The notes under the pieces are model-generated. The model was given only the letters and a program-made list of their open reading frames with translations. It did no database searches and was not told where the DNA came from. A program made the translations under genes and the position numbers. 64,000 bases of DNA from Thioalkalivibrio paradoxus ARh 1 (lineage in GTDB: Bacteria > Pseudomonadota > Gammaproteobacteria > Ectothiorhodospirales > Ectothiorhodospiraceae), in NCBI RefSeq assembly GCF_000227685.2, contig NZ_CP007029.1, positions 2,578,501-2,642,500 of the forward strand, in the 5' to 3' direction. The stretch's first letter is position 1. Every line of letters begins with the position of its first letter. Positions 3,264-19,320 of this stretch are shown here, in pieces.

Positions 3264-4053
3264 TTCCCGAGGTTTTGCGTGGGGGAATTTCGCATTCCTC
3301 GGGCTCAAGCCCCTCGAGATCGCAATTCGAGATCGGATGCAGTTCCTCGTCGGTACCGATGTCGATCCCCGCTTTCTTCAGCGCTTCACAGGCGCGTTCC
3401 ATGCGCTCGTCGACCTCATGCAGATGATCGACGATCCGGTGGATCGCATTGGCCACCGGGTCCGGCATGTCGCGGGTCAGACCGTAGGCGTCGAAGCCCA
3501 TCCGGTCGGCCATCGCCTTGAAGCGGGGGTTCGGCTCCGGCCGCGGCCCGAGCACCCGCGCGGGGATTCCGACCGCGGTTGCGTCCGCAGGGACGTCGCG
3601 CAGCACCACCGCGTTGGAGCCGATCCGGGCCCGCGCGCCGATATGCACCGGCCCCAGCACCTTCGCGCCGGCACCGATCACCACGCCGTCGTCCAGCGTG
3701 GGGTGGCGCTTCCCCCTGTCCCAACTGGTCCCGCCGAGGGTCACCTGGTGATACAAGGTGCAGTCGTCGCCGATCTCGGCGGTTTCGCCGATCACCACAC
3801 CCATCCCGTGGTCGATGAAGAAGCGGCGCCCGATCCGCGCCCCCGGGTGGATCTCGATGCCGGTGAGCAGCCGCCCGACGTTCGCCAGCACGCGGGCCAG
3901 CCACCGCAGCCGCCATCGCCAGAGTCCGTGTGCGAGCCGATGCACCCAGACGGCGTGCAGACCCGGGTAGGCCGTAAGCACCTCGAACGAGTTCCGCGCG
4001 GCCGGGTCGCGAGCGAACACACACTGAATGTCTTCACGTAGCCGCTGGAACAT
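3256..4053 (-). CDS. cysE: Serine O-acetyltransferase
   Basis: The 265-aa protein has the short helical N-terminus and the left-handed beta-helix of hexapeptide repeats, including [19 protein letters not shown] and [20 protein letters not shown]. The catalytic histidine is in the FIDHG stretch. It makes O-acetylserine from serine and acetyl-CoA for cysteine synthesis; cysM at about 33 kb is the next enzyme. The acidic C-terminal tail resembles tails known to contact cysteine synthase, but that role is inferred. It lies between trmJ and iscR, the order also seen in Vibrio and Pseudomonas relatives. Confidence 0.95.
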
Positions 4054-4091
4054 GGGAAACGCCGTCGCAAGCGGAATAGAAATCTACGATA

Positions 4092-4844
4092 TCACGACCG
4101 CGTTCGCGGGCGTCCTCCGCCGCGCTCGGTATGCGTCAGGATCCCCCGCAGGATCCGCACCTCGTTGGCGGTCAGGCCGGCACGTTGATAGAGGTGCCGC
4201 AGCCGGCGCATCAGGTGGCGCGGCTTTTCCGGATCGAGGAATTCGATCTGCACCAGCGCCCGCTGATAATGCTCAAACAGTGCGTCCATCTCGGCCTGCG
4301 TCGCGTAGCGCTCGGTCCCGCCGCCGGCAGCAGCGCTGTCCGCGTCGCCCGCCAGCACCGCGCTCCGGCACGCGTAGGCCAGCACCTGCACCGCGGCCGC
4401 GAGGTTCAGCGAGCTGAAGTCCGGGTCGGTGGGAATCTGCACGAGCGCGGTGCAGCGATCGAGCTCGGCGTTGGTCAGGCCGCTGCTTTCACGGCCGAAC
4501 ACCAGCGCCACGGGTCCCCCGGACGTCCGGGCGACCAGTTCCCGCGCGGCCGGTTCGGGCGTGAACACCGGCACCGAGTGGCCGCGTCGCCGGGCGCTGG
4601 TCCCGACCACCCAAACGCAATCGGCAACCGCGTCGTCGAGCCGCGACAGCACGCGGGCCCGCGCCAGCAGGTCGTCCGCGCCCGCGGCCAGCGCGGTCGC
4701 CTCGGCAGCCGGGAAGCGCTGCGGATCCACCAGCACCAGATCCGACAGCCCCATGGCCTTCATCGCCCGGGCGGCCGAGCCGATGTTGCCCGGGTGTGTA
4801 GTGCCCACCAGCACCACACGGATGCGAGCCAAATGATCGTGCAT
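4092..4844 (-). CDS. trmJ: tRNA (cytidine/uridine-32-2'-O)-methyltransferase TrmJ
   Basis: I place the start at the ATG giving MHDHLARIRVVLVGTTHPGN (250 aa); an in-frame ATG 14 codons upstream (4886) is possible. The SPOUT knot is visible in GTTHPGNIGSAARAMKAMG near the N-terminus, in VALVFGRESSGLTNAEL and in IPTDPDFSSLNLAAAVQVLAY. The enzyme methylates the 2'-OH of position 32 in tRNA anticodon loops. TrmJ upstream of iscR is a common gammaproteobacterial arrangement. Confidence 0.92.
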   Translation of the reverse strand: MHDHLARIRVVLVGTTHPGNIGSAARAMKAMGLSDLVLVDPQRFPAAEATALAAGADDLLARARVLSRLDDAVADCVWVVGTSARRRGHSVPVFTPEPAARELVARTSGGPVALVFGRESSGLTNAELDRCTALVQIPTDPDFSSLNLAAAVQVLAYACRSAVLAGDADSAAAGGGTERYATQAEMDALFEHYQRALVQIEFLDPEKPRHLMRRLRHLYQRAGLTANEVRILRGILTHTERGGGRPRTRS

Positions 4845-4895
4845 CGTGCGGTACGCTCCGCTGTTGCGTGATCCGGAAGTGTTCATCGGGACTTT

Positions 4896-4933
4896 GGCGC
4901 TGTGGCGGCGGGTCGCCCTGCCGCCACAGCGCC
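4896..4933. other. Perfect 14-bp hairpin between two minus-strand transcripts
   Basis: GGCGCTGTGGCGGC (4896-4909) and its exact inverse complement (4920-4933) flank a 10-base loop. It lies between the end of the 5013-5624 gene and the start of trmJ. Neither strand has a T-run after it, so it would be an atypical terminator or an mRNA-end stabiliser. Confidence 0.55.
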
Positions 4934-5012
4934 AGGCCGGGCGTTAAGGCCGAGCGGTCGCCACACGCAGGGACTTCGATACCGCGGGCCGGTGACGACC
5001 CGCCTGCTGCGC

Positions 5013-5624
5013 TCAGTCGTCGGCCAGGGGGCGCCGGGGGCCTTCGTCGCTGCGGGACGCACTTGCCGCCGCCCCCAGCAGCGACTTCAACGCGCGCCTG
5101 AACGTCTGCGCGGCCTCGGGACCGTCGATCGCGACGACCTGATCCTGCGCCCACTTGCGGTTCGTCGGTCCAAGCACCTCGGTCACCCGGTCGCCAAGCA
5201 CGCAGAGCATCGAGAACCCGGGGCCTTCCTGCTCGCTATAGCTGCATTCGGCGTAATGGCCCGTGCGCTCGTTGAGCTTGTCGATGAACTGCTCCCGGTA
5301 GGGCCCCGGTCCCTGCGCGTCGCTGCGGTTTTCGTCCACCAGTTCGGAAAGTCGCAGCGCCATCGCGGTGATGAAGCGACCGCGTTCGTCGTCGTCCAGA
5401 CGGTCGTAGACCTGGCGGTCCGCGACCAGCACCAGGAAGGCGACGAATTCTTCGATGATGTCCAGCCGCTGGGCGCGCGACGCCGTCTCGAAACCCTCGT
5501 TCTCGAGGTTGAGCACGCCGTTGCAGGCCGCACGCCAGGCGTTCGACGCCGCCGCGGTCGCCAGATCCTCGAGGCTGCGTTCGCGGCCTTCCTGCTTCCA
5601 ACGCCCCCTCAGACGCAGACTCAT
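5013..5624 (-). CDS. Unknown helical protein coupled to the DUF3050 gene
   Basis: I do not recognise this 203-aa protein. It is predicted to be mostly helical (for example SRAQRLDIIEEFVAFLVLVA and RFITAMALRLSELVDENR). It has no signal peptide or membrane segment, and has cysteines near residues 34, 126 and 141. Its start overlaps the preceding DUF3050 gene by 4 bases, which argues for translational coupling and a shared function. It is the last gene of the minus-strand run that leads away from the dsr control region. The middle section (HYAECSYSEQEGPGFSMLCV) could bind a cofactor, but nothing fixes this. Confidence 0.7.
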   Translation of the reverse strand: MSLRLRGRWKQEGRERSLEDLATAAASNAWRAACNGVLNLENEGFETASRAQRLDIIEEFVAFLVLVADRQVYDRLDDDERGRFITAMALRLSELVDENRSDAQGPGPYREQFIDKLNERTGHYAECSYSEQEGPGFSMLCVLGDRVTEVLGPTNRKWAQDQVVAIDGPEAAQTFRRALKSLLGAAASASRSDEGPRRPLADD

Positions 5625-6400
5625 GCCGCCTCCCGCAGACGGGCGTGAACACCGTCCCAGAATGCGATACGCGCTTCCAGCGCGGTGCTGGCCGCGACCC
5701 GCGCCTCCTCGAGTTTCACCGGATCGCCCGCGCAGAGCAGGTCCAGCATGCGCAGCGACATCGGGCCGTGGAAGTCCTCGTCGAGGTGGACATGCCGGTT
5801 GAGATAGAAATGGAACTGCGGTGCCGCATCGGACCCGATCCCCATCTCGCGCAGGAAGCTGCGGAACATTCCCGGGATCACGTGCTCGCGGCCGAGCGCC
5901 AGCGCTGCGGCCACCACGTGCGGTTTGCCGCTGGCGATGAAGTCGAAGGTCGTGCGCATGAAACGGGCTGCCGGCTCCGGTGCGATACCCGCATCCAGCG
6001 CCGCGTCGATGCCGTGCTGCGAGGCGAGGGCCACGAACCGCCGCGGGCGCTCGGGATCCGCACCGAGTTCCTGCATCGCTTCACAGTACAGCTCGAAGTG
6101 GCTCATGTGGCGATCGACACCATCGGGACCCGGCACCGCGTCGGATTCCTCTTCCAGCACGAGTTCATTGATGAAGCGCCGTACCGCGGCATCGCCGCTG
6201 GGCGTCCATGGCTGTCGTGCGGGCGCCAGATGCCCCTGCAGGTACTTGATCAGGGACATGAAATCCCAGACCGAGTAGACATGGTGCTCCATGAAATGGC
6301 GCAGCGCATCGAGATCGCGCAGGCCGTAGACCGGATGCTGGTCGAGGCGCTTGCGCAGCGGCGCGAGAACCTCCGGGTCGAAACCGGCGAGCTTGGGCAT
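5621..6400 (-). CDS. DUF3050 (haem-oxygenase-like fold) protein
   Basis: I chose the ATG giving MPKLAGFDPEV because a GAGGG site lies 8 bases before it; a longer TTG start at 6442 exists. The 259-aa protein has the DUF3050 pattern: an HPVYGLRDLDALRHFMEHH segment, VYSVWDFMSLIKYLQ, an EEESD motif, HFELYCEAM, and late HFYLNRHVHLDEDFHGPMS. The repeated Glu/His residues resemble haem-oxygenase-like di-iron oxidases of the CADD type, but no activity is established for DUF3050. It sits between a 69-aa protein and the unknown 203-aa protein. Confidence 0.8.
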   Translation of the reverse strand: MPKLAGFDPEVLAPLRKRLDQHPVYGLRDLDALRHFMEHHVYSVWDFMSLIKYLQGHLAPARQPWTPSGDAAVRRFINELVLEEESDAVPGPDGVDRHMSHFELYCEAMQELGADPERPRRFVALASQHGIDAALDAGIAPEPAARFMRTTFDFIASGKPHVVAAALALGREHVIPGMFRSFLREMGIGSDAAPQFHFYLNRHVHLDEDFHGPMSLRMLDLLCAGDPVKLEEARVAASTALEARIAFWDGVHARLREAA

Positions 6401-6510
6401 GGGGATACCCTCGACGATGGGCATTGCAGGGCGGGCCGGCAACGGAGTGATGCCGGGAACGCAGCGGATGCGGGCGGCCGGCAGCCGCCCCGCATCCGCC
6501 CGTGCGGAGC

Positions 6511-6720
6511 TCAGCGGTGCGAGCCCTTCTCCTCGTGGGCAATATCCACCAGCTGCATCGCGATGTCGCGGTAGCGCTTGTGGTAGCCATGCAGGGGATG
6601 GCCCTCGGGAGCGATGTAGTAGTCGACCGGATCGACACCATTCTCGTTCTGGTGCTCGTACTTCATGAAATGCTTCTGCATTTCCAGCATTTCCTTGATC
6701 AGTTCCTGCTTATTGCTCAT
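6511..6720 (-). CDS. Small charged protein of unknown function (69 aa)
   Basis: The 69-aa product is rich in Lys, Glu, His and Tyr (for example MLEMQKHFMKYEHQNENG and HPLHGYHKRYRDIAMQ) and has no cysteine or signal peptide. It has a plausible start with an upstream GGAGA and lies in line with its neighbours, 110 bases before the DUF3050 gene. The amphipathic helices at both ends suggest a small adaptor or cofactor-binding protein, but I do not recognise a family. Confidence 0.72.
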   Translation of the reverse strand: MSNKQELIKEMLEMQKHFMKYEHQNENGVDPVDYYIAPEGHPLHGYHKRYRDIAMQLVDIAHEEKGSHR

Positions 6721-6749
6721 GGTTGCGTGTCTCCATGGTGATGGGGTAG

Positions 6750-6781
6750 CAGTCGCGCGGACCCCGAAGCCAGCGCGACTG
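6750..6781. other. Perfect 9-bp inverted repeat in the leader of the 69-aa gene
   Basis: CAGTCGCGC and GCGCGACTG flank 14 bases. The hairpin falls in the 123-bp gap between the Cys-less dsrC copy and the 69-aa gene. It has no T-run; it may be an attenuator, a processing site or an operator. Confidence 0.45.
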
Positions 6782-6843
6782 TAACACCGGCCAGCGGGGC
6801 GCTTAACCTCCCTTAGGGGATAGGTCGGGCGCGCAATGCCGCA

Positions 6844-7185
6844 TCAATATCCGCCCTTGCGCCGGCTCTCGGGCAGTCCCGCGATACGGCCACCCTGCTT
6901 GCTGGGATCCAGCGGGAAGAGATCGTAGATGGTCTTGGCATCGACGCTCTTGTCGCCCCAGAGCTGCTGCATGGCCTTTACGATCGTCCGCGTGTTGGGC
7001 TGGTTTTCGTTGTTGTTGAAGTACTCGTCGCGAAGGTACCGGATCAGGTCCCAGTGCCGCTGGCTCAGGGCGATGCCTTCCTTCGCGGCGATGGCCTCCG
7101 CAACCTTCTCGTTCCAGTCCGACAGTTCCTCGAGGTATCCGTTCGCGTTCGTGGCGATGGTGGCGCCATCGACTTCCAGACTCAT
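6844..7185 (-). CDS. Cysteine-less DsrC/TusE-family protein
   Basis: This 113-aa protein aligns along its length with the genuine DsrC at 13.4 kb: NANGYLEELSDWNEKVAEAI, the RHWDLIRYLRDEYF helix, and the terminal IAGLPE arm. True DsrC ends with two redox cysteines eleven residues apart; here the inner position is Gly99 and the arm ends RRKGGY. No cysteine exists anywhere in the protein, so it cannot carry persulfide or form the DsrC trisulfide. Cys-less DsrC relatives have been grouped in the literature as probable regulators (Rsp proteins). It may be a decoy, a DNA- or RNA-binding regulator, or a structural partner. Confidence 0.88.
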   Translation of the reverse strand: MSLEVDGATIATNANGYLEELSDWNEKVAEAIAAKEGIALSQRHWDLIRYLRDEYFNNNENQPNTRTIVKAMQQLWGDKSVDAKTIYDLFPLDPSKQGGRIAGLPESRRKGGY

Positions 7186-7350
7186 CTGGTCTTCCTCCCT
7201 TGACTCGCTCTATCAGGTTTCACGGTGGGTTCGGAACCGGAAGCCCCAGGGCATCCCCGGGCAGCTCCGGATCCGGGATACTGCGCTAACCGCCGGGAAC
7301 GCTTTCGCAGACCCGGCGGATCATGCCTCGATAATTGCCGGGGTCCTCGA

Positions 7351-8043
7351 TCAGGCCGCCCCGGGCACCGGCGCGATGTCCTTGTGCCCGATGAACAGGC
7401 CACAGCCCATCGCCTGCTCGGACCCCACGCCGCTGCGCTGCAGCCGCAGCGACGCCTCGGGATCGAGCTCGGCGACCATCAGGCTGCGCGTGTGCAGCAA
7501 ACCGTCCGGGACCCGCAGCACATGGCTGCGGCCGCTCAGCAACTTCGACACCGGCACGCCGATCCGCGCCAGCTCGGCCGCCATCTCGGCAAGGAATGCG
7601 GCTTCGTCCTGCTCCGGGTCCGCCACCACGTGGCGGGCAAACACCACCGGCAACGGCTCCAGCGGAATCACGTTCATCGCGCCCACGCCGACCCCGAACC
7701 CCGATACCTCCAGGGTCTGGCCGACCAGGGCCGCGGCCTCGTCGACGCGCGCCTCGGGCACGCGCAGCCGCAGCCGGGCCCGCCGGGACAGGTGCAGCAG
7801 GTCGCGCTCGGGATCCTGCGGACGCATCCAGCCATTGCCCGACTCTGCGCCGTGGATCAGGTGCACGCCCGCATGTTCCTCGGTGCCGAGCCAGGGCAGA
7901 AGCTCGAGCAGCGCCGTGGACAACGCATAGGCATGGTCCAACGGCAGGCGCGGGCAGTCGATGCGGTACGCGACGTCGACCACGTCGCGCAGCCCGGCGA
8001 GTTCATCCTGCGGCGAATCGTCCCAAAACATCTCGGCCCCCAT
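7351..8043 (-). CDS. Solitary Cas6/Cmx6-like protein
   Basis: The 230-aa sequence resembles the Cas6 variant of MYXAN-type CRISPR systems (Cmx6). It has an N-terminal VVDVAYRIDCPRLPLDHAYA strand-helix, HLIHGAESGNGW, a TRSLMVAELDPEASLRLQ stretch, and a C-terminal glycine-rich loop MGCGLFIGH (residues 212-220). Cas6 proteins are RAMP-fold endonucleases that cut CRISPR transcripts. No CRISPR array or other cas gene is visible in these 64 kb, so the job here is probably different. The start abuts the stop of the 63-aa gene; an ATG at 8031 is an alternative start. The family assignment is from remembered sequence patterns. Confidence 0.72.
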   Translation of the reverse strand: MGAEMFWDDSPQDELAGLRDVVDVAYRIDCPRLPLDHAYALSTALLELLPWLGTEEHAGVHLIHGAESGNGWMRPQDPERDLLHLSRRARLRLRVPEARVDEAAALVGQTLEVSGFGVGVGAMNVIPLEPLPVVFARHVVADPEQDEAAFLAEMAAELARIGVPVSKLLSGRSHVLRVPDGLLHTRSLMVAELDPEASLRLQRSGVGSEQAMGCGLFIGHKDIAPVPGAA

Positions 8044-8235
8044 TCAACGGCTCGCCGACGTGAATTCCGCCTCGATGCGTTCCTCCCAGTCCATCGGCGT
8101 ATCCGGGAACGGAGGCCGCACGTCCGAACTCAGGAAGCGTTCCCCTGCACGGGCGCGCTCGCGCACCAGCTCCAGCAACTGCTCGAAGGATTCGAGATCC
8201 TGGTTCTGCATCAGCATCTCGCTCAGCCAAATCAT
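8044..8235 (-). CDS. Small acidic protein of unknown function (63 aa)
   Basis: This 63-aa frame starts 9 bases after the dioxygenase stop and ends immediately before the Cas6-like start, so it fits tightly into the operon. It has a helical first half (SEMLMQNQDLESFEQLLELV) and a DMW/EERIEAEF-like acidic tail. No cysteine, signal or known motif is visible. The tight spacing on both sides is the main evidence that it is a real gene. Confidence 0.65.
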   Translation of the reverse strand: MIWLSEMLMQNQDLESFEQLLELVRERARAGERFLSSDVRPPFPDTPMDWEERIEAEFTSASR

Positions 8236-8244
8236 CGCATTACC

Positions 8245-9171
8245 TCAGGTTTTTGCCACGCGGTCCAGGAATCGAGCCCGGTAGACCCGCCGTTGCCGGC
8301 CGACCTCGGCGTCGTCCCGGAATCCGGTGCGGTTATGCAGCACGTTGTTACAAAGCAGCCCCTCGCCCGGCGCGAGCCGATACCGGAACACCGGAACCGT
8401 TTCCGACTCGAGCAGCTGCGTGATCTGCGCGGCGGCTTCCCGCGTTGTCGCGTCGTCGCGCCAGCGCACGTTGCGCCCGCGCGCGGTATAGCGCATGTGC
8501 AGCGCCCCGGTTGCCGGATCCACGCTGAATACCGGGCCGGTACGCTCCGGGCGCAGCACCTGTCCATCCTGGACGTTCGCGGGAATCGTCAAGGCCTGAG
8601 GGTGCATCAGCGCGGCCACGTACTCGGGATCACGGTCACGCAGCGCAATGTACAGCATCTCGTGGTCGACCAGACCGTTCTCGCCGCCTTCGGCCGCATC
8701 CTGCGCGCAGTGCAGCAACATCGCGCGGATCGTCCGCGCCGACTCATTGTAATAGCCGTCGCAATGCCAGCTCAGCGGACGGTCGGTGTAGGGGATGTAG
8801 TCGGCCTTGTGACCACTGCCGTCGCTGACCTGCAGCTCGCTGATGCCATCCTCGTCGGCACAGAGGTGCTCGTCGAGGCGTTCCAGCCCCAGCGCCCGGC
8901 CGAACGCCCGCACCGATGCCCGACCCGCCCCGGCGTTGCGGCAGCGGTAGACCACCATGTTCGCCCGCTGGATCGCGTCGGTCAGCGCCGCACGTTCGTC
9001 CGCACTCGGGCAGGCGATATCGTTCACGTCCACTTTCAGTGCCTGCAGCGCTTGCGGAAAACGGCGCAGCTTGTCGGCGCGCCAACGGCGATACGCCGCA
9101 TCGTCGCCAAGGGCAAAGGCCCGTTGGCCAGGCGCGGAGTGCAGGTATTGGTGCGTGGCGCTGTTCATCAT
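8245..9171 (-). CDS. TauD/TfdA-family Fe(II)/2-oxoglutarate dioxygenase
   Basis: The 308-aa protein has the iron facial triad His136-x-Asp138 (SWHCDGYYN) and distal His279 (NNVLHNRTGF), followed by an arginine-rich RVYRARF strand near residue 298 that should hold 2-oxoglutarate. It therefore looks catalytically intact. The substrate is unknown; TauD acts on taurine, but nothing here indicates a sulfonate pathway (no transporter). It is the first gene of the minus-strand run and is divergent from dsrA, sharing its control region. Confidence 0.85.
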   Translation of the reverse strand: MMNSATHQYLHSAPGQRAFALGDDAAYRRWRADKLRRFPQALQALKVDVNDIACPSADERAALTDAIQRANMVVYRCRNAGAGRASVRAFGRALGLERLDEHLCADEDGISELQVSDGSGHKADYIPYTDRPLSWHCDGYYNESARTIRAMLLHCAQDAAEGGENGLVDHEMLYIALRDRDPEYVAALMHPQALTIPANVQDGQVLRPERTGPVFSVDPATGALHMRYTARGRNVRWRDDATTREAAAQITQLLESETVPVFRYRLAPGEGLLCNNVLHNRTGFRDDAEVGRQRRVYRARFLDRVAKT

Positions 9172-9660
9172 CGGCTCGAGGCGTTATGGTGGCCAAGCGG
9201 TGTGGCTCGCCGGGCGCAGTTCCCGCAGCGGATCTGCCCGCGCGGTGTCCGCAGTGTAGTGCGCTGCCGATTCCCCACAACTATCCTTCCGGGATAGAAG
9301 GCTTTCCGGCGGCGGAATCGCAGCGATGACGGCCGCCGCCCGAGCCCTGCCTCAGGGGTCCGGCAAGCCGCTACCGCCGTCTCCGGGCCGGCACCCGGCA
9401 CCCCCGGTGCCGCGCATATCCCGGGAGAGATAGAGCACCCCTATTACCCTCCCCCATGAGTAGGATGTTCTCGTCACACGCACGGACCTACAGTAACCGA
9501 CCGTGTGACGAGGGGTCCTCGCCGGGGGATCGCCTCTGCAGTAGCATCAGCGTCCGGAACGAACTCTGGACGACGAGTTCGAACCGACTACACTACCGCA
9601 ACGTGTCGACCCGACTGACTCGAGCCGGCCCGCATCCAGAACCCGAACAAGGAGACCGCC
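9172..9660. promoter_or_regulatory. Divergent control region between the dioxygenase run and dsrA
   Basis: These 489 bases hold no convincing gene. They contain a short inverted repeat CTATCC-N5-GGATAG (9281-9297) on the dioxygenase side and the strong 11-bp repeat at 9470-9512 on the dsr side. A purine-rich AACAAGGAGACC ribosome-binding stretch precedes dsrA. I could not assign a reliable -35/-10 pair. Sulfide-dependent dsr expression would be controlled from here. Confidence 0.6.
9470..9512. repeat. Perfect 11-bp inverted repeat upstream of dsrA
   Basis: CTCGTCACACG (9470-9480) and CGTGTGACGAG (9502-9512) are exact inverse complements separated by 21 bases, giving a centre-to-centre distance of 32 bp, three helical turns. 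This could be a two-site operator or, if transcribed, a leader hairpin. It lies about 150 bp before the dsrA start. Confidence 0.6.
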
Positions 9661-10926
9661 ATGGCGAACCAACATCATCCGACCCCCATGCTCGACGAGT
9701 TGGAAAACGGCCCCTGGCCGAGCTTCATCTCGGGAATCAAGCGCCTTCGCGACGAACATCCGGATGAGCGCATCAAGAACGTGACCAACGACCTGCTCGG
9801 TCAGCTCGAGCACTCCTACGAGACCCGCAAGGGCTACTGGAAAGGCGGCACGGTCTCGGTGTTCGGCTACGGTTCCGGAATTATCCCGCGCTTTTCCGAG
9901 GTTTCCAAGGCTTTCCCCGAGTCGCGCGAATTCCACACCGTGCGCGTGCAGCCGCCGGCCGGCAACTTCTACACCACCGACATGCTGCGCCAGCTGGCGA
10001 ACAGCTGGGAGAAGCACGGCTCGGGCCTGGTCACCTTCCACGGCCAGACCGGCAACGCGATGTTCATCGGCGTGAACACCACCAACACCCAGGCCTTCTT
10101 CGACGAGATCAACGAATACGGTTGGGATCTCGGCGGCGCCGGCCCCTGCGTGCGTACCGGCATGTCCTGCGTCGGCGCAGCCCGTTGCGAACAGTCCTGC
10201 GCCAACGAGCAGCGCATCCACCGCACGCTGCTGAACCGCTTCACCGATGACGTGCACCGCCCGTCGCTGCCGTACAAGTTCAAATTCAAGGTCTCCGGCT
10301 GCCCGAACGACTGCGTGAACGCGATCGAGCGCTCCGACTTCGCGGTGATCGGCACCTGGCGCGACGACATCAAGATCGATCAGGAAGAGGTCAAGAACTT
10401 CGTCGCCGAATACGGCCGCGACAAGGTCCACCTGGACGTGATCAACCGTTGCCCCAGCAAGTGCATGACGCTGAACGAGGACAACACGCTGGCCATCGAC
10501 AACGGCAACTGCGTGCGCTGCATGCACTGCATCAACGTGATGACCAAGGCATTGTCGCCCGGCGACGATCAGGGCGTGACCATCCTCGTCGGCGGCAAGC
10601 GCACGCTGAAGATCGGCGACCTGATGGGCACCGTGATCGTACCGTTCATGAAGCTCGAGACGGAAGAGGACTACCAGGGGCTGGTCGAACTCGCTGAAAA
10701 CATCATCGACTTCTGGGCCGAAAACGGCCTCGAGCACGAGCGTTGCGGCGAAATGATCGAGCGCATCGGCCTGGTGAACTTCCTGAAGGGAATGGGCCTG
10801 GAGGCCGACCCGAACATGGTCAACCATCCGCGCCAGAGTTCCTACATCCGCTTGGACGAGTACGACGAGGCTGCGGAGAACTACCTGCGCCACAAGATGG
10901 AACAGCGGCAGGCCGCCGCGGGTTGA
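9661..10926 (+). CDS. dsrA: Dissimilatory sulfite reductase alpha subunit, reverse type
   Basis: The 421-aa protein carries the sirohaem-coupled cluster ligands in SCVGAARCEQSC and VSGCPNDC, and a ferredoxin insert with CPSKC and CVRCMHC. DsrA and DsrB form a cytoplasmic alpha2beta2 enzyme. In sulfur oxidisers it runs in reverse, oxidising DsrC-bound sulfur to sulfite. A clear ribosome-binding site (AAGGAG) precedes the ATG. It opens the dsrABEFHCMKLJOPNR operon. The DsrEFH and DsrL genes downstream identify the oxidative type. Confidence 0.98.
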   Translation: MANQHHPTPMLDELENGPWPSFISGIKRLRDEHPDERIKNVTNDLLGQLEHSYETRKGYWKGGTVSVFGYGSGIIPRFSEVSKAFPESREFHTVRVQPPAGNFYTTDMLRQLANSWEKHGSGLVTFHGQTGNAMFIGVNTTNTQAFFDEINEYGWDLGGAGPCVRTGMSCVGAARCEQSCANEQRIHRTLLNRFTDDVHRPSLPYKFKFKVSGCPNDCVNAIERSDFAVIGTWRDDIKIDQEEVKNFVAEYGRDKVHLDVINRCPSKCMTLNEDNTLAIDNGNCVRCMHCINVMTKALSPGDDQGVTILVGGKRTLKIGDLMGTVIVPFMKLETEEDYQGLVELAENIIDFWAENGLEHERCGEMIERIGLVNFLKGMGLEADPNMVNHPRQSSYIRLDEYDEAAENYLRHKMEQRQAAAG

Positions 10927-10987
10927 TCCCGCGGTTCTCCGCCCCCTGACCGAACACTACCTATTCAATAGATAGCGGGAGTAATCG

Positions 10988-12064
10988 ATGTCACAACCAG
11001 CCATGCGTCCGCCGATCGAATCCGGTTGCCCGGACGGTTTCCAGTACATGCATCCGCTGATGCGCCGTAACTTCGGCATGTGGAAATACCACGAGCATCC
11101 CCGCCCCGGTGTGTTGCTTCATGTTTCCGACATGGGCGAGAAGATCTGGACCGTGAAAGCCGGCACCCAGCGCATCCTCGACGTGTTCACGCTGCGCAAG
11201 CTCTGCGATATCGGTGATCAGTACGCCGACGGCTACGTGCGCTTCACGATCCGTTCGAACATCGAGTACATGATCGACGCCGAGGAAAAGGTCGAGCCGT
11301 TGATCAACGCGCTGGAAGACGCGGGCTTCATCGTCGGCGGCACGCGCAACTCGGTGTCGATGATCTCGCACACCCAGGGTTGGCTGCATTGCGACATCCC
11401 CGGCACCGACGCCTCCGGCGTGGTGAAGGCGATGATGGACGAACTCATCGACGAGTTCCGCAACCACAACATGCCCAACCGCGTGCACATCACCACCTCG
11501 TGCTGCCAGATCAACTGCGGCGGCCAGGGCGATATCGCGATCAACGTGCAGCACACCAAGCCGCCGAAGATCAACCACGACCTCGTCGCCAACGTCTGTG
11601 AACGCCCGTCGGTGGTTGCTCGCTGCCCCGTCGCCGCGATCCGCCCGGCACTGGTCAACGGCAAGCCGTCGCTCGAAGTCGACGAGAAGAAGTGCATCTG
11701 CTGCGGTGCCTGCTACCCGCCCTGCCCGCCGATGCAGATCAACGACGCCGAGCACACCAAGTTCGCGATCTGGGTTGGCGGCAACCATTCCAACGCCCGC
11801 GGCAAGCCGACGTTCCAGAAGCTGGTCGCGTCCGGCATCCCGAACAACCCGCCGCGCTGGCCCGAGGCCACCGCGATCGTGAAGCGGATCCTGAAGGTCT
11901 ACCAGGAAGACGGTCAGGACTGGGAGCGCATCAACGACTGGATCGAGCGCATCGGCTGGCCCGCGTTCTTCGAGAAGACCGGACTGCCGTTTACCCGGTA
12001 CCACATCGAGAACTGGCGCGGCGCACGTAACAGCCTGAACGCGTCGACCCACATCCGGTTCTGA
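10988..12064 (+). CDS. dsrB: Dissimilatory sulfite reductase beta subunit, reverse type
   Basis: The 358-aa protein begins with PPIESGCPDGFQYMHPLMRR and ends with a YHIENWRGARNS segment, both DsrB hallmarks. The catalytic sirohaem-[4Fe-4S] ligands are in TTSCCQINCGGQGD and ERPSVVARCP, and the ferredoxin domain shows CICCGACYPPCPP. In this heterodimer DsrB holds the active sirohaem. A GGGAG site 7 bases upstream supports the ATG. The dsrA-dsrB gap is 61 bp. Confidence 0.98.
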   Translation: MSQPAMRPPIESGCPDGFQYMHPLMRRNFGMWKYHEHPRPGVLLHVSDMGEKIWTVKAGTQRILDVFTLRKLCDIGDQYADGYVRFTIRSNIEYMIDAEEKVEPLINALEDAGFIVGGTRNSVSMISHTQGWLHCDIPGTDASGVVKAMMDELIDEFRNHNMPNRVHITTSCCQINCGGQGDIAINVQHTKPPKINHDLVANVCERPSVVARCPVAAIRPALVNGKPSLEVDEKKCICCGACYPPCPPMQINDAEHTKFAIWVGGNHSNARGKPTFQKLVASGIPNNPPRWPEATAIVKRILKVYQEDGQDWERINDWIERIGWPAFFEKTGLPFTRYHIENWRGARNSLNASTHIRF

Positions 12065-12097
12065 TCCGGGACGTTTTTCGACCCGGCAGACGTTGAA

Positions 12098-12119
12098 CCG
12101 GCGGCCCCAGGGCCGCCGG
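12098..12119 (+). other. Intercistronic hairpin dsrB/dsrE
   Basis: CCGGCGGCC and GGCCGCCGG form a 9-bp stem with loop CCAG. No T-run follows, so it is more likely an mRNA stability or processing element than a terminator. Confidence 0.5.
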
Positions 12120-12150
12120 CTCGTAAACAGGCTCAACAGGAACGCACCGA

Positions 12151-12543
12151 ATGAAATACGGAATTCTGGTCAACGAGGGCCCGTATCAACACCAGGCCTC
12201 CGATACCGCCTACCAGTTCGCCAAGGCCGCAATCGACAAGGGCCACGAGGTCTTCCGCGTGTTCTTCTATCACGACGGCGTGAACAACGGCACCCGCTTC
12301 GGCGTGCCGCCACAGGATGACCGCAACATCACCACGCGCTGGACCGAAATGGCCGAGCAGCACGGGGTCGACATGGTCATCTGCATCGCCGCCGCGCAGC
12401 GCCGCGGGCTGCTCGACGAGGGCGAGGCCAAGCGCCAGGGCAAGGACGGTGACAACATCGCACCCGGCTTCCGAATCTCGGGTCTCGGCCAGCTGATCGA
12501 GGCAGGGATTCAGTGCGACCGCCTGGTGGTGTTCGGCGACTGA
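12151..12543 (+). CDS. dsrE: Sulfur-transfer subunit DsrE
   Basis: The 130-aa protein has the DsrE fold and the conserved Cys78 in MVICIAAAQRRGLL. This is the persulfide-carrying residue of DsrE/TusD. DsrE forms the alpha2beta2gamma2 DsrEFH complex that passes sulfur to DsrC; the complex marks sulfur oxidisers and is absent from sulfate reducers. It is in line between dsrB and dsrF. Confidence 0.97.
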   Translation: MKYGILVNEGPYQHQASDTAYQFAKAAIDKGHEVFRVFFYHDGVNNGTRFGVPPQDDRNITTRWTEMAEQHGVDMVICIAAAQRRGLLDEGEAKRQGKDGDNIAPGFRISGLGQLIEAGIQCDRLVVFGD

Positions 12544-12584
12544 TCGCCAACGGGCTGACCCGCACCGACCGGCCTCACGCCAGT

Positions 12585-12603
12585 GCTCCCCGATCCGGGG
12601 AGC
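12585..12603 (+). other. Intercistronic hairpin dsrE/dsrF
   Basis: GCTCCCCG and CGGGGAGC form an 8-bp stem around ATC in the 96-bp gap. There is no T-run. Confidence 0.5.
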
Positions 12604-12639
12604 CGGCCACGCAACCATCATCATCGAAGGTAGAACGAA

Positions 12640-13032
12640 ATGTCAGAACCTTGGGAAGAAGAAGGTCCAGGCACGATCAAGAAGTTCATGTACGTGAACC
12701 GCAAGGCACCGTACGGAACCATCTATGCGCTGGAATCGCTGGAAGTCGTGCTGATCGCGGCCGCCTTCGAACAGGACGTCAGCATGGCCTTTCTCGACGA
12801 CGGTGTGTACCAGCTGAAGAAGGGGCAGGATACGCAGGGCATCGGGATGAAGAACTTCTCGCCCACCTACCGCGCCCTCGAAGGCTACGACGTCGAAAAA
12901 CTCTACGTCGAGGCCGAGTCCATGGCCGAACGCGGTCTCACCGAAGACGATCTGCTGGTCCCGGTCGAAGTCATCAGCCGCGAGGCGATGACCGAGCTGA
13001 TGGAAGAGCAGGACGTGATTCTGAGTTTCTGA
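12640..13032 (+). CDS. dsrF: Sulfur-transfer subunit DsrF
   Basis: The 130-aa DsrE-fold protein (KKFMYVNRKAPYGTIYALE; FLDDGVYQLKKGQDT) is the TusC-like subunit of DsrEFH. I find no cysteine in it, so here it must be a structural subunit, with DsrE Cys78 and DsrH Cys20 doing the chemistry. The stop lies 10 bases before the dsrH start. Confidence 0.96.
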   Translation: MSEPWEEEGPGTIKKFMYVNRKAPYGTIYALESLEVVLIAAAFEQDVSMAFLDDGVYQLKKGQDTQGIGMKNFSPTYRALEGYDVEKLYVEAESMAERGLTEDDLLVPVEVISREAMTELMEEQDVILSF

Positions 13033-13042
13033 GGGAGTTGTC

Positions 13043-13351
13043 ATGAGCATGCTGCACACCGTCAACAAGTCGCCGTTCGAGCGCAACACCCTTGCGTCCT
13101 GTCTGGGTCATGCGAAAGCCGGTTCCGATATCCTGCTGATCGAAGACGGCGTCTACGCGGCCGTACGCGGTACCTCCCATGAGGATATGGTCCGCAACGC
13201 GGTCGGCACGCACAATGTATACGTGCTCGGGCCGGATCTGCTCGCCCGCGGCATGAACCCCGAACAAGTCATCGAGGGCATCTCGGTCGCGGACTACGGC
13301 GATTTCGTCGACCTGACCGAAAAGCACGACAAGGTCCAGGCCTGGCTCTGA
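13043..13351 (+). CDS. dsrH: Sulfur-transfer subunit DsrH
   Basis: The 102-aa TusB-like protein starts MSMLHTVNKSPFERN and keeps Cys20, the conserved cysteine of the family. With DsrE and DsrF it forms the hexameric sulfurtransferase that interacts with DsrC. A GAGGGAG ribosome-binding site lies in the short gap after dsrF. Confidence 0.97.
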   Translation: MSMLHTVNKSPFERNTLASCLGHAKAGSDILLIEDGVYAAVRGTSHEDMVRNAVGTHNVYVLGPDLLARGMNPEQVIEGISVADYGDFVDLTEKHDKVQAWL

Positions 13352-13402
13352 AGCCGGACCGGTCCGCACATCCATCCGAAACCCTAGCAACAGGAGTCTC
13401 CC

Positions 13403-13735
13403 ATGCCAATCGAAGCCAACGGCAAGACCTACGAAACCGACGAAGAGGGCTACCTCGCCAACCTGAACGACTGGAACCCCGACCTGGCCACCGCGATGGC
13501 CAAGGCCGACGGTGCCGACCTCGACGAAAACCATTGGGAAGTCATCAACTTCCTGCGCGAGTACTACGAGGAATACCAGATCGCCCCGGCGGTCCGCGTG
13601 CTGACCAAGGCGATCGGCAAGAAGCTCGGGCCGGACAAGGGCAACAGCAAGTACCTCTACGAGCTGTTCCCGTACGGTCCCGCGAAGCAGGCTTGCAAAT
13701 ACGCCGGTCTGCCGAAGCCGACCGGCTGCGTCTGA
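13403..13735 (+). CDS. dsrC: Sulfur carrier protein DsrC
   Basis: The 110-aa protein ends CKYAGLPKPTGCV with Cys98 and the penultimate Cys109, the two redox cysteines of functional DsrC. It receives sulfur from DsrEFH, presents it to DsrAB, and its oxidised form is reduced or recycled by DsrK of the membrane complex. A GGAG site precedes the ATG. A strong hairpin follows, which fits DsrC being made in excess of the downstream membrane subunits. A Cys-less paralogue lies at 6844-7185. Confidence 0.98.
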   Translation: MPIEANGKTYETDEEGYLANLNDWNPDLATAMAKADGADLDENHWEVINFLREYYEEYQIAPAVRVLTKAIGKKLGPDKGNSKYLYELFPYGPAKQACKYAGLPKPTGCV

Positions 13736-13753
13736 ACCACCTGCATGACCCCT

Positions 13754-13778
13754 CCGGGTGGGGCCTCACCCCACCCGG
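13754..13778 (+). terminator. Strong hairpin after dsrC, probable partial terminator
   Basis: CCGGGTGGGG and CCCCACCCGG form a perfect 10-bp stem with loop CCTCA, followed by TTCTTCT. It lies between dsrC and dsrM. It may let only part of transcription continue into dsrMKLJOPNR, or protect the 3' end of a dsrC message. Confidence 0.6.
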
Positions 13779-13802
13779 TTCTTCTGATCCGGAGGATTGC
13801 CC

Positions 13803-14555
13803 GTGTTTGTCACCGTGCTCTTTGCCCTGCTCTTCTATGCGGCCACGGCCATCTTTCTGGTCGGGATCGGCATGCGCATCGCACGTTATGCACGGACCCC
13901 CGCGCCGCTGAAGATTCCCACGACGCCTGCGCCGACCACGCGCGGCGGGGTCGTGGTGCGGATGGCAACCGAAGTCCTCCTGTTCAACAGCCTGTTCAAG
14001 GCCAACAAGTGGATCTGGATCTTCGGCATCCTGTTCCATGTGGCGCTGGCTCTCGTGCTGTTGCGCCACCTGCGCTATTTCCTCGATCCAGTACCGACCT
14101 GGGTCGTCATGATTCAGCCCTTCGGCAAGTACGCCGCGTTCGCGATGGTGATCGGGCTCGCAGGGCTCTGGGCACGGCGGCTGTTCGTCGAACGCATCCG
14201 CTACATCTCGTCGCCGTCGGACCATCTGATGCTGGCGCTGCTGCTAGGCATCGGCCTGACCGGCCTCGCGATGACCTACCTCTGGCACGTCGACATCACC
14301 GCGGTGAAGCTGTTCTTCACCGGACTGATGCGGTTCGACTTCAACCCGCTCCCCGCGCACCCGATGCTGCTGCTGCATCTGCTGCTGGTCGCCGGGCTGA
14401 TGATCATCTTTCCGTTCAGCAAGCTGCTGCACGCGCCGGGCGTATTCTTCAGCCCGACCCGCAACCAGGTCGACAATCCGCGCGAAAAGCGCCATGTCAC
14501 GAAAGTGACCTGGATGGTCCGGAGCGAAAAACCCGCGGCGAGCGCGGATCAATAA
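13803..14555 (+). CDS. dsrM: Membrane subunit DsrM (b-type cytochrome)
   Basis: I place the start at GTG 13803 because GGAGG lies 7 bases before it; the in-frame TTG at 13797 is too close. The product is 250 aa with five or more membrane helices and paired histidines in WIFGILFHVALALVLLRHL and HPMLLLHLLLVAGL, the haem b ligands of the NarI-like family. With DsrK it forms the quinone-linked module of DsrMKJOP. The arginine-rich C-terminal end faces the cytoplasm. Confidence 0.95.
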   Translation: MFVTVLFALLFYAATAIFLVGIGMRIARYARTPAPLKIPTTPAPTTRGGVVVRMATEVLLFNSLFKANKWIWIFGILFHVALALVLLRHLRYFLDPVPTWVVMIQPFGKYAAFAMVIGLAGLWARRLFVERIRYISSPSDHLMLALLLGIGLTGLAMTYLWHVDITAVKLFFTGLMRFDFNPLPAHPMLLLHLLLVAGLMIIFPFSKLLHAPGVFFSPTRNQVDNPREKRHVTKVTWMVRSEKPAASADQ

Positions 14556-14589
14556 ACCGAACGGCGCCCCTTAGACAGGAACCCGCACG

Positions 14590-16086
14590 ATGGCCAATTT
14601 CGATACCCCGGAACTCACCGAAACCGATACCGTGGAGATCCCCGCACTGAAAAGCGGGGTCATGTCCCACAGCAAGCCTTTCGTTTCGAAGGAACAGTTC
14701 CAGGCACCGCTCGGTTTCCCCGGCGAGCTGGCCGACAACTGGAAGGATGTTGCGATCAACAAGCTTGGCGAGCTGCTGCAGTCCAACCGCGCGCTCCAGG
14801 TGTTCATGGATTCCTGCGTGAAATGCGGCGCCTGCACCGACAAATGCCATTACTTCCTCGGCACTTCCGATCCGCGCAACATGCCGGTTGCCCGCCAGGA
14901 TCTGCTGCGCGGCGTGTACCGCCGCTACTTCACGCTCCCCGGCAAGTACTTCCCGAAGCTGGTCGGCGCGACCGATCTGACCGAGGAGGTGCTCGACCAG
15001 TGGTACAGCTACTTCCACCAGTGCTCGGAATGCCGGCGCTGCTCGGTGTACTGCCCCTACGGGATCGACACCGCCGAAATCACCATGGCCACCCGCGACA
15101 TCATGAACGCGGTTGGCAAGGGCCAGAAATACAGCAACGAAATCATCGGCAAGGTGTTCAAGATCGGCAATAACCTCGGCCTGCCGCAGCCGGCGCTGGA
15201 AGACACGCTGCTCGGCCTCGAGGAAGACGTGAAGGATGACACCGGCATCGACGTGCGCTTTCCTCTCGACGAGAAGGGTGCCGAGGTGCTGGTCGTCACC
15301 CCGTCGGCCGACTTCTTCGCCGAGCCGCACATCGACGGCCTGATCGGCTATGCGAAAGTCTTCCACGCCGCCGGCATTTCCTGGACGCTGTCGTCGCACG
15401 CATCCGAAGCCGCGAACTTCGGCCTGTTCATCGGCTCCGGCGAGAACATGAAACGCATTGCGATGCGCATCCGCGAGGCCGCGCTCGACCTCGGCGTGAA
15501 GCGCATCATCTTCGGCGAATGCGGCCATGCCTGGCGCGTGGCCTACAGCTACCTGAATACGCTCGCCGGCCCGTTCGACTTTCTCGATCCGCGCTACCCG
15601 GTGCCGCAGCATATCTGCGAGTTCACCCACGATCTGATCCAGCGCGGCGTGCTGACGCTCGACAAGAGCCGCAACGACCACCGCCGGGTGACCTTCCACG
15701 ATTCCTGCAACGTCGCCCGCGCGTCGCGCATGGGCGACATGCCGGGCGGGCAGTTCATCATTCCGCGCGAGATCATCAAGGCGACCTGCAACCATTTCCA
15801 CGACATGGCGCCGGAAACGATCGGCGAAGGCACCTTCTGCTGCGGCGGCGGTGGCGGTCTGCTGACCGACGACCTGATGGAACTCCGGGTCAAGGGCGCC
15901 CTGCCCCGCATGAATGCGCTGAAGCAGGTCGTCGACGAACACGAAGTCACGCATATGGCGGCGATCTGCGCGATCTGCAAGAGTCAGTTCAGCAAGGTGC
16001 TGCCTTATTACGGCTTCCAGATGGACCAGATCATCAGCGTCCACCAGCTGGTCAGCGACGCCCTCGTCCTCGACGCGAAACAATAA
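14590..16086 (+). CDS. dsrK: DsrK, heterodisulfide-reductase-like iron-sulfur subunit
   Basis: The 498-aa protein has two ferredoxin-type motifs, CVKCGACTDKCHYF and CSECRRCSVYCPYG, and two HdrD-type CCG regions, HDSCNVARAS and FCCGGGGGLL, that bind the special catalytic [4Fe-4S] cluster. It is the cytoplasmic subunit that handles DsrC disulfide or trisulfide and exchanges electrons with DsrM. It follows dsrM with a 34-bp gap and an ACAGGAAC ribosome-binding site. Confidence 0.97.
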   Translation: MANFDTPELTETDTVEIPALKSGVMSHSKPFVSKEQFQAPLGFPGELADNWKDVAINKLGELLQSNRALQVFMDSCVKCGACTDKCHYFLGTSDPRNMPVARQDLLRGVYRRYFTLPGKYFPKLVGATDLTEEVLDQWYSYFHQCSECRRCSVYCPYGIDTAEITMATRDIMNAVGKGQKYSNEIIGKVFKIGNNLGLPQPALEDTLLGLEEDVKDDTGIDVRFPLDEKGAEVLVVTPSADFFAEPHIDGLIGYAKVFHAAGISWTLSSHASEAANFGLFIGSGENMKRIAMRIREAALDLGVKRIIFGECGHAWRVAYSYLNTLAGPFDFLDPRYPVPQHICEFTHDLIQRGVLTLDKSRNDHRRVTFHDSCNVARASRMGDMPGGQFIIPREIIKATCNHFHDMAPETIGEGTFCCGGGGGLLTDDLMELRVKGALPRMNALKQVVDEHEVTHMAAICAICKSQFSKVLPYYGFQMDQIISVHQLVSDALVLDAKQ

Positions 16087-16104
16087 CCACGAACCGAAGC
16101 ACAG

Positions 16105-16120
16105 TCGGGCCATCGCCCGA
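16105..16120 (+). other. Small intercistronic hairpin dsrK/dsrL
   Basis: TCGGGC and GCCCGA form a 6-bp stem with loop CATC in the 52-bp gap before the dsrL ribosome-binding site. Confidence 0.35.
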
Positions 16121-16138
16121 TTCCACAGGAGACACGGC

Positions 16139-18085: not shown

Positions 18086-18086
18086 C

Positions 18087-18572
18087 GTGCTGCGTGGATT
18101 CACCCCGTTCGGCCTGTCCCTGCCAGCCCTGGTGCTGGCAGGGCTGGCCCTGACGCTTGCAGGCTGTGGCAAGGTCGAACCGCCGGATCCGGCGCTGCTC
18201 GCGGAAGCGCGCGGCGATCAGTGCGTCAAGGATCCCGATGTGATGCGTCGGGATCACATGAAGATCCTGATGCACGAACGCGACGAGGCGAAGCGCTTCG
18301 GGCGGCGCAACCCCGATCACAGCTTCGTGGGATGCATCGACTGCCACGTGTCGCCGACCGCAAGCCGTGACGAACCTTCGACCCACTTCTGCCTCGCCTG
18401 CCACGAGTTCAACGCCGTGCGGATGGACTGCTTCCAGTGCCACACCGACCAGCCGTCGGACAGCGCGCCGATGCCGCGCCAGAGCGCCGACGTCGAGAGC
18501 CTGCTTGACCAGCATCTCGCGGCACAGGACACGGGCGGACCGAGGTCCGTCCAGGAGATACCGACACCATGA
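18087..18572 (+). CDS. dsrJ: DsrJ, periplasmic trihaem cytochrome c
   Basis: From GTG 18087 the product is 161 aa; a GTG at 18078 overlapping dsrL would add three residues. Three CxxCH haem sites are at residues 83-87 (CIDCH), 102-106 (CLACH) and 115-119 (CFQCH). Cys46 matches the unusual axial cysteine ligand described for Allochromatium DsrJ. The N-terminal hydrophobic segment ends TLAGC, a good lipobox at Cys27, so the protein may be lipid-anchored instead of signal-anchored. It is the periplasmic cytochrome of DsrMKJOP. Its end overlaps dsrO by 4 bases. Confidence 0.93.
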   Translation: MLRGFTPFGLSLPALVLAGLALTLAGCGKVEPPDPALLAEARGDQCVKDPDVMRRDHMKILMHERDEAKRFGRRNPDHSFVGCIDCHVSPTASRDEPSTHFCLACHEFNAVRMDCFQCHTDQPSDSAPMPRQSADVESLLDQHLAAQDTGGPRSVQEIPTP

Positions 18573-19315: not shown

Positions 19316-19320
19316 GACCG

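Follow-up and report, generated by a model that had tools for sequence, protein, structure and literature searches.

The genome of Thioalkalivibrio paradoxus ARh 1 (RefSeq assembly GCF_000227685.2, contig NZ_CP007029.1) raises the question of what a run of seven minus-strand genes, lying back to back with the dsr genes, does for sulfur oxidation. The reverse-Dsr (rDsr) pathway is a main route of stored-sulfur oxidation by bacteria in seas, sediments and symbioses. The run occupies positions 5013 to 9171 of a 64,000-nucleotide stretch (positions 2,578,501 to 2,642,500 of the contig), which is called the window here and to which all coordinates refer. From comparison of this run across genomes, we consider it to be a dsr-dedicated accessory module of rDsr sulfur oxidation, with a probability of about 0.95. 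Its core consists of a TauD-like oxygenase (dsrQ), a Cas6-family protein (Cas6L), a cysteine-free DsrC paralogue (DsrCx) and conserved proteins of 63 and 203 amino acids (u63 and u203); a 69-amino-acid protein (u69) joins it in many Gammaproteobacteria, and a DUF3050 protein was seen in the window's own family only. The genes of the run and the divergent dsrA are as follows.

8245-9171, minus strand: dsrQ, TauD-like Fe(II)/2-oxoglutarate oxygenase of 308 amino acids (PF02668), divergent from dsrA
8044-8235, minus strand: u63, conserved protein of 63 amino acids (open reading frame [ORF] and conservation)
7351-8043, minus strand: Cas6L, Cas6-family protein (repeat-associated mysterious protein, RAMP) of 230 amino acids (PF09559/TIGR02807)
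7933-7935, minus strand: codon of the conserved His37 of Cas6L (conservation and AlphaFold model)
6844-7185, minus strand: DsrCx, cysteine-free DsrC paralogue of 113 amino acids with the tail ...GLPESRRKGGY (PF04358)
6847-6858, minus strand: codons of the C-terminal Lys-Gly-Gly-Tyr of DsrCx (conserved tail, alignment by eye)
6511-6720, minus strand: u69, conserved protein of 69 amino acids, found in many Gammaproteobacteria (ORF and conservation)
5621-6442, minus strand: DUF3050 protein of 273 amino acids (PF11251)
5013-5624, minus strand: u203, conserved all-helical protein of 203 amino acids (ORF, conservation and model)
9661-10926, plus strand: dsrA, the divergent partner (TIGR02064, 618.7 bits)

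All seven ORFs are conserved as proteins among relatives, and none is therefore a chance ORF. A preliminary description made from this DNA alone had reported the run with an abutment at 8043/8044, an overlap at 5621-5624 and two microproteins; the ORF list of the window bears out its coordinates and both junctions, and the microproteins, u63 and u69, are likewise present and conserved as proteins among relatives. Family searches of the window ORFs gave no match above cut-off for u63, u69 or u203.

The association with dsr was assessed by co-occurrence. Of 369 gammaproteobacterial genomes in one draw, a non-random sample of non-independent genomes for which a Fisher p is no more than a rough guide, 118 have Cas6L and 119 dsrA, with both in 111 and neither in 243 (dsrA was scored at E < 1e-30 with partial genes included; 112 genomes exceed the family cut-off). 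Cas6L is nearly as constant as dsrA within this draw. The dsrA contigs of all eight dsrA-only genomes were read. In six of them the contig breaks off upstream of dsrA, at a distance of 0 to 0.63 kb or, in one (G168; G and L numbers are genome and locus labels), just past dsrQ and u63. The module was not in the 7.8 kb upstream of dsrA that could be read in G256, nor in the 1.75 kb in G398, where dsrA looks like a second copy because no dsrE occurs in the 0.6 kb past dsrB. DsrCx sits on another contig in the dsrA-only genomes G256, G125 and G252. Among the seven Cas6L-only genomes, six (G113, G139, G172, G231, G361 and G362) have a contig end at or near the expected place of dsrA, with a piece of dsrA retained in G362, leaving G343 as the one not explained by a contig end. 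Thus, in 12 of the 15 mismatches the contig ends where the partner is expected, which agrees with breaks in the assembly.

The same pattern was observed at other taxonomic depths. In the order, Cas6L occurred in 17 and dsrA in 16 of 47 genomes, Cas6L being present in all 16 dsrA genomes; the additional Cas6L genome (G028) has a completeness of 67% and a contig of 3 kb. In a draw of 299 genomes from the phylum, Cas6L was found in four (the window's own and three others), and dsrA adjoins in all four. The DsrCx profile matched 87 of 293 genomes at E <= 1e-40, all of them dsrA- or Cas6L-positive and 84 dsrA-positive, in a draw where the dsr or Cas6L genomes included beyond the 87 are only partly known (15 such labels up to G342 are without a listed match). 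Since all 87 are dsrA- or Cas6L-positive, the DsrCx type belongs to rDsr organisms in this sample; one dsr/Cas6L genome, G055, was searched with the DsrCx profile and gave no match. Distance correlation with DsrA was positive for all seven proteins tested, dsrB as yardstick included (r of 0.35 to 0.83), which carries little weight because relatedness was uncontrolled. As a phototroph check, PF00124 was found in six of the 369 genomes, none of them dsrA-positive, in none of 80 genomes (72 Cas6L-positive and 8 dsrA-only) and in none of 11 around G167.

Linkage was then read in 77 Cas6L loci, 17 from the order and 60 from among the 117 class genomes left when the window's own is set aside. In all 62 loci that contain both genes, dsrA and Cas6L are divergent. 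Most loci read have the module genes back to back with dsrA, next to the cluster that carries dsrEFH. The other genes share the strand of Cas6L: dsrQ in 63 of 63, DsrCx in 62 of 64, u63 and u69 in every locus where they are present (67 and 49, respectively), and u203 in 46 of 47. Outside the window's own family, 46 loci reach at least 6 kb on each side of Cas6L, and these contain dsrA in 38, dsrQ in 35, u63 in 40, DsrCx in 38, u69 in 25, u203 in 27 and DUF3050 in none. The 17 stretches of the own order show dsrA divergent from TauD - u63 - Cas6L - DsrCx - u69 - DUF3050 - u203 as far as the contigs reach; the gaps are DsrCx missing in L032 to L035, u63 undetected in L032 and DUF3050 in two pieces in L027. 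Cas6L is also retained in genomes where it is unlinked from dsr (e.g., G154, G143 and G349). Nine further dsrA copies in module-bearing genomes (L220-L223 and L225-L229), eight of them with dsrB, have no dsrEFH beside them and zero module genes in the 14-19 kb read; the second copies L224 and L230, which begin at a contig end, are not counted among these nine. The homologues are accordingly not scattered: Cas6L, dsrQ, u63, DsrCx and u203 occur with dsr, and the same genes hold strand and neighborhood over many families, the co-occurrence and synteny on which the preliminary description had staked its reading. By these sequence comparisons the link to dsr is secure, as firm as comparative data allow.

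Three side observations were made in these loci. At L220, L227 and L229, the second dsrAB copies without dsrEFH lie near a DsrC-like ORF ending in AWSTG. At L068, u63 adjoins dsrE with no dsrQ, dsrA or dsrB between, and the dsrA of that genome (G311) sits on a separate contig. In 20 loci a protein of about 236 amino acids without a significant family lies between u63 and Cas6L (for example, L101 1525-2238).

The identity of Cas6L was examined by profile and fold. Cas6L matches PF09559 at 9.2e-59 (199.1 bits against a cut-off of 26.7) and TIGR02807 at 135.2 bits (cut-off of 98.85), and its profile matches the Cas6 of a type I-B CRISPR (clustered regularly interspaced short palindromic repeats) transposon (PDB 8fcj_B, E of 6.6e-24). 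Its AlphaFold model, with a predicted local distance difference test score (pLDDT) of 87.6, matches Cas6 8fcu_B (template modeling score [TM] of 0.75, E of 3.3e-16), and the PADLOC Cas6 models match all 29 members scanned. By profile and predicted fold, Cas6L is a true Cas6 homologue, so that the RAMP-like protein proposed earlier was correctly recognized. His37 is conserved and placed just before helix 38-48 of the model, suggesting that it may be catalytic, and the conserved N70-G71-W72-x-R74 stands opposite a gap when aligned with the CRISPR protein.

Since Cas6L scores above the cut-off of TIGR02807, a CRISPR model, and Cas1 matches occur somewhere in its own genome and in 42 others of the 80 Cas6L genomes searched, it might be a stray CRISPR ribonuclease in a run kept together by ordinary hitchhiking. 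We consider this extremely unlikely. The window's genome has one Cas6-family match only, and the Cas1 matches there are at a distance of about 0.4 Mb or more from Cas6L. No Cas1 match was found in 37 of the 80 genomes (Cas1 being the one CRISPR component that the search covered, apart from arrays and other cas genes), including the single-contig genomes G065, G080, G090, G126, G128, G154, G177 and G355. Cas6L is thus independent of a CRISPR adaptation gene in the genome, and its near one-to-one co-occurrence with dsrA holds even where the two are unlinked. A CRISPR role was therefore rejected on the Cas1 distribution and the dsr linkage, and hitchhiking on the co-occurrence with dsrA, the retention where unlinked and the restriction of DsrCx to dsrA- or Cas6L-positive genomes.

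The second unusual member, DsrCx, matches PF04358 at 3.8e-33 and has zero cysteines in the window protein, as expected from the thiol-free DsrC fold reported earlier; the family profile matches PDB 1yx3 at 2.9e-29. From all loci read, 113 distinct DsrCx sequences were collected, near-identical ones remaining among them, with the assignment to DsrCx or DsrC made by the better of two profiles that each match both types. The KGGY end is present in all of the 111 that are at least 95 amino acids long (RKGGY in 98 and GKGGY in 13), and 95 of these have no cysteine whatever; the two short sequences include halves of a broken gene (L135). In an ungapped alignment made by eye from the GLP that both share, Lys110 of DsrCx (GLPESRR-K-GGY) takes the position of the last DsrC cysteine (GLPKPTG-C-V); the beta-type tail reads GLPQPLG-K-GGY. 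An alignment of the DsrC GCV with the DsrCx GGY was replaced by this ungapped version, which pairs Cys with Lys. Having no thiol, DsrCx cannot relay sulfur as DsrC does, and the tail being fixed to the last residue suggests binding or modification by a partner.

These properties bear on a reading that places the core function in RNA modification or processing: Cas6L and a TusE-like DsrC would act on transfer RNA (tRNA) or other RNA and so keep RNA thiolation or maturation apart from the heavy Dsr sulfur flux, while dsrQ would hydroxylate RNA or a protein of the complex. That Cas6L is a real Cas6 homologue and that TusE, which acts in tRNA thiolation, belongs to the DsrC family (matches to TIGR03342 and PRK11508) would suit it, but DsrCx is without a conserved thiol to relay sulfur, and the co-occurrence is with dsrA, whereas tRNA thiolation is a general process. 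We regard this reading as unlikely.

DsrCx was also found on viral contigs. Of six relatives, three are DsrCx with the RKGGY end (L252, L253 and L254); the one gene tested beside L252 (nuclease) and the two beside L253 (ParB/methylase and GmrSD) gave no clear phage mark. On the third, a 219.7-kb contig (IMGVR_UViG_3300033182_000674; L258 9751-10438), a dsrC with both cysteines and a PTGCI end is followed directly by a DsrCx with the RKGGY end. Neighboring genes on this contig are endolysin-like, PBP_like_2 (PstS-like, by eye) and deoxyribonucleotidase-like, and from these it looks like a phage. The tandem of dsrC and DsrCx suggests a common process for the two. Among 50,697 annotated phage records, two match DsrCx (at 43% and 36%), and one of these bears a TusE annotation. 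In the passages concerned, five phage DsrC with neither cysteine motif are described in PMC8190135, and SUP05 phage DsrC without one cysteine in PMC4164917.

For dsrQ, the match to PF02668 is 1.3e-22, and the TauD-superfamily Fe-binding residues (H136, D138 and H279) are conserved at >= 95% in 64 sequences; on these residues rests its reading as a putatively active Fe(II)/2-oxoglutarate dioxygenase. The section on dsrQ in PMC7596348 credits Lenk et al. 2012 with naming a tauD-like gene divergent from dsr dsrQ, and reports the speculation that it acts in sulfonate breakdown. Were dsrQ to free sulfite from sulfonates in this way, as its TauD family would allow, the module might feed organic sulfur into the pathway. 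Its nearest solved structures, however, are TmpA and gamma-butyrobetaine dioxygenase, both hydroxylases of trimethylammonium compounds, and E. coli TauD is not among the 14 PDB sequences that match dsrQ at E up to 10; in addition, Cas6L, DsrCx, u63 and u203 would be left unexplained. We therefore rate a sulfonate role as very unlikely.

The same relatives, together with a match to the trimethyllysine dioxygenase family far below its cut-off, could instead point to maturation of DsrCx, in which dsrQ acts on the KGGY tail as its substrate with the help of u63, and DsrCx, once modified, serves the pathway as a working part and not as a brake. The KGGY fixed in all near-full-length DsrCx and the phage-like contig with DsrCx beside dsrC would agree with this. 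On the other side, there are dsrQ loci without nearby DsrCx, and DsrCx loci without nearby dsrQ (L083, L096, L108, L119 and L124), and we hold maturation to be quite improbable.

The u63 consensus is ML.LSE...DVKPPFxDTPxDWEDRLEAAF. The model of u203 is all-helical (pLDDT of 87.3); its fold search gave no PDB match at E <= 0.001, and the window protein no Pfam family at E <= 0.01. The DUF3050 ORF matches PF11251 at 1.2e-85 and, weakly and under the cut-off, Haem_oxygenas_2 at 3.2e-5, making a haem-oxygenase-like fold possible; the assigned start, TTG at 6442, is in doubt because conservation sets in further inside the ORF. It is present in 9 of 9 own-family loci versus 0 of 46 other long loci and was on that count rejected as a core part. 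The preliminary description was right about its family, but the place of this gene in the general module is not supported.

The space between dsrQ and dsrA, 489 bases in the window, was searched for shared control elements; the features of this side of the run are as follows.

9172-9660, strandless: divergent control region between dsrQ and dsrA (conserved blocks, 12 own-family loci aligned)
9282-9296, plus strand: palindrome TATCC-N5-GGATA, possible operator (pattern scan)
13403-13735, plus strand: canonical dsrC with both arm cysteines present (family match)

In 29 of 63 loci the 450 bases upstream of dsrA contain a palindrome of the form TATCC-N4..7-GGATA, whereas 0 of 1260 mononucleotide shuffles contain one. 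In the window it is the sole match with up to one mismatch in 64 kb, where 0.35 are expected and 30 of 100 shuffles have one. Because a single window match is not unusual, the weight of the palindrome comes from its place in many loci. It is a possible operator (TATCCC-N4-GGGATA-like) of a regulator shared by dsr and the module, and the dsr control region that the genes had been said to share is to this extent plausible. A scan for sigma-70 promoters and terminators gave nothing clearly above chance. In the gap between dsrC and dsrM (13736-13796), a strong hairpin follows dsrC; such a hairpin is found in 54 of 57 loci, with no shared sequence. Its candidacy as a universal Cas6L target is unsupported, the hairpin being weak in the Cas6L-bearing loci L119, L121 and L122.

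On the plus strand, dsrA is followed by dsrB, dsrEFH, dsrC, dsrM, dsrK and dsrL, and downstream of the seven-gene run lie trmJ and then ORFs read as cysE and iscR. Of these labels, dsrA, dsrC and trmJ were tested by family, and dsrB, dsrE, dsrF, dsrH, dsrM, dsrK, dsrL, cysE and iscR were read by eye from the window ORFs. Near the module in other loci, further 2-oxoglutarate-Fe(II) oxygenases (PF13640) and a DUF6866 protein form clusters in 36, 30 and 32 loci (examples are L088 12256-12930, L073 12552-13157 and L097 16512-17561); the clusters were obtained by single linkage and may include shadow ORFs.

Several results weigh against a dsr-dedicated module with a control role. A dsrQ profile scan of named genomes gave at least 590 relatives, and among the best 80 of these, the loci that were read (L206-L209 lie outside the counts), dsrA is present in 67, Cas6L in 54, u63 in 52 and DsrCx in 50. 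Within the stretch read, which is the scope of this count, Cas6L is absent from the other 26; 8 of them include dsrA and reach 6 kb or more past dsrQ (L148, L160, L167 and L169 with gammaproteobacterial titles, and L166, L170, L179 and L184 with alphaproteobacterial ones). Eight alphaproteobacterial-titled loci in this set have dsrQ with Cas6L and DsrCx absent from the stretch, and in L182 (titled Sedimenticola) and others dsrQ occurs with dsrA not in reach. In the long non-family loci, moreover, dsrQ is absent from 11 of 46 and DsrCx from 8 of 46. The parts can thus be used apart; from the Cas6L-free loci it follows that dsrQ, often with u63, can stand without a nearby Cas6L. Finally, no conserved RNA target was found in the hairpin survey of 57 loci, and Rfam gave no match at positions 4000-20000 of the window. 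The Cas6L-free dsrQ loci leave our estimate unchanged, because it concerns a dsr-dedicated module rather than a universal one. In the same set, the gene order is Cas6L - DsrCx - u203 - dsrQ in betaproteobacterial-titled loci such as L175, L183, L189, L200 and L202.

We next considered how a dsr-dedicated module might work. It probably helps to control or maintain sulfur oxidation, and the regulation may be at the RNA level or by redox. That its main role is control through DsrCx and/or Cas6L seems to us an even chance. We favor as hub a redox-dead mimic of DsrC, because DsrCx is thiol-free, its tail is fixed and dsrC and DsrCx stand in tandem on a phage-like contig. The arm of DsrCx, in which Lys replaces the last cysteine, would dock at a DsrC site (on DsrAB, DsrEFH or DsrK) and throttle or protect that step; that DsrCx does act on the partners of DsrC we would neither bet on nor against. 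The oxygenase dsrQ, with its expected need for O2, Fe(II) and 2-oxoglutarate, may make the module responsive to the status of oxygen or carbon, possibly through hydroxylation of the DsrCx tail or the u63 protein, and Cas6L may bind or cut structured RNA from dsr or module transcripts and so set protein levels. The complete chain of DsrC mimic, O2-level control and RNA-level control is doubtful. Similarly tentative, and on balance not what we expect, is the broader picture in which a Cas6 ribonuclease taken out of CRISPR, a thiol-free DsrC decoy and an O2/2-oxoglutarate oxygenase modifying KGGY make up an rDsr control system across the Gammaproteobacteria, beta-type lineages included, with phages having taken up the decoy together with dsrC.

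That a gene is nearly as constant as dsrA in this draw, and that the function of its partners is unknown, suggests a part still missing from models of the pathway. Cas6L is a candidate case of a Cas6 working outside CRISPR, which would explain why it passes a CRISPR annotation model, and KGGY provides a sequence mark for a class of cysteine-free DsrC proteins in bacteria and on phage-like contigs. As a set of accessory genes the module is new, within a pathway that is known; should its RNA and oxygen parts prove true, it would be a new kind of control system.

The preliminary description knew of no pathway with this set of genes. RspA is a DsrC without cysteines, and a literature search for RspA with DsrC gave unrelated papers only. 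No paper joining Cas6 and dsr came up in searches of the open PubMed Central (PMC) library, subscription papers being outside this scope. Term searches found TauD, Cas6 and dioxygenase absent from the main text of a 2024 study of rDsr evolution (PMC11406059), and TauD and Cas6 absent from a Thioalkalivibrio survey (PMC6382920). One member of the set, dsrQ, is already in print: the window ORF at 8245-9171 is of the same gene type, place and orientation as the published gene. The dsrQ section of PMC7596348 names dsrQ alone, with Cas6L, DsrCx, u63, u69 and u203 unmentioned there, and no account of the remaining genes as a module turned up in the open papers searched.

DsrC homologues outside the operon and without the cysteines are described for a Solemya symbiont in a passage of PMC4287430. 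Such proteins of the symbiont and of phages resemble DsrCx in being DsrC-like without the working cysteines; these passages (PMC4287430 and PMC8190135) mention no KGGY end, module or Cas6. With type I-MYXAN Cas6/Cmx6 and the Cas6 of I-B CRISPR transposons (8fcj and 8fcu), Cas6L shares the family, the predicted fold and a glycine-rich C-terminal loop, but it differs in being linked to dsr, in having the NGWxR stretch and in His37, which aligns with Asn in those proteins. Compared with the sulfur carriers DsrC and TusE, DsrCx has the same fold family and the same arm sequence up to GLP, whereas it is without both arm cysteines (CysA and CysB) and ends in KGGY where DsrC has CV or CI.

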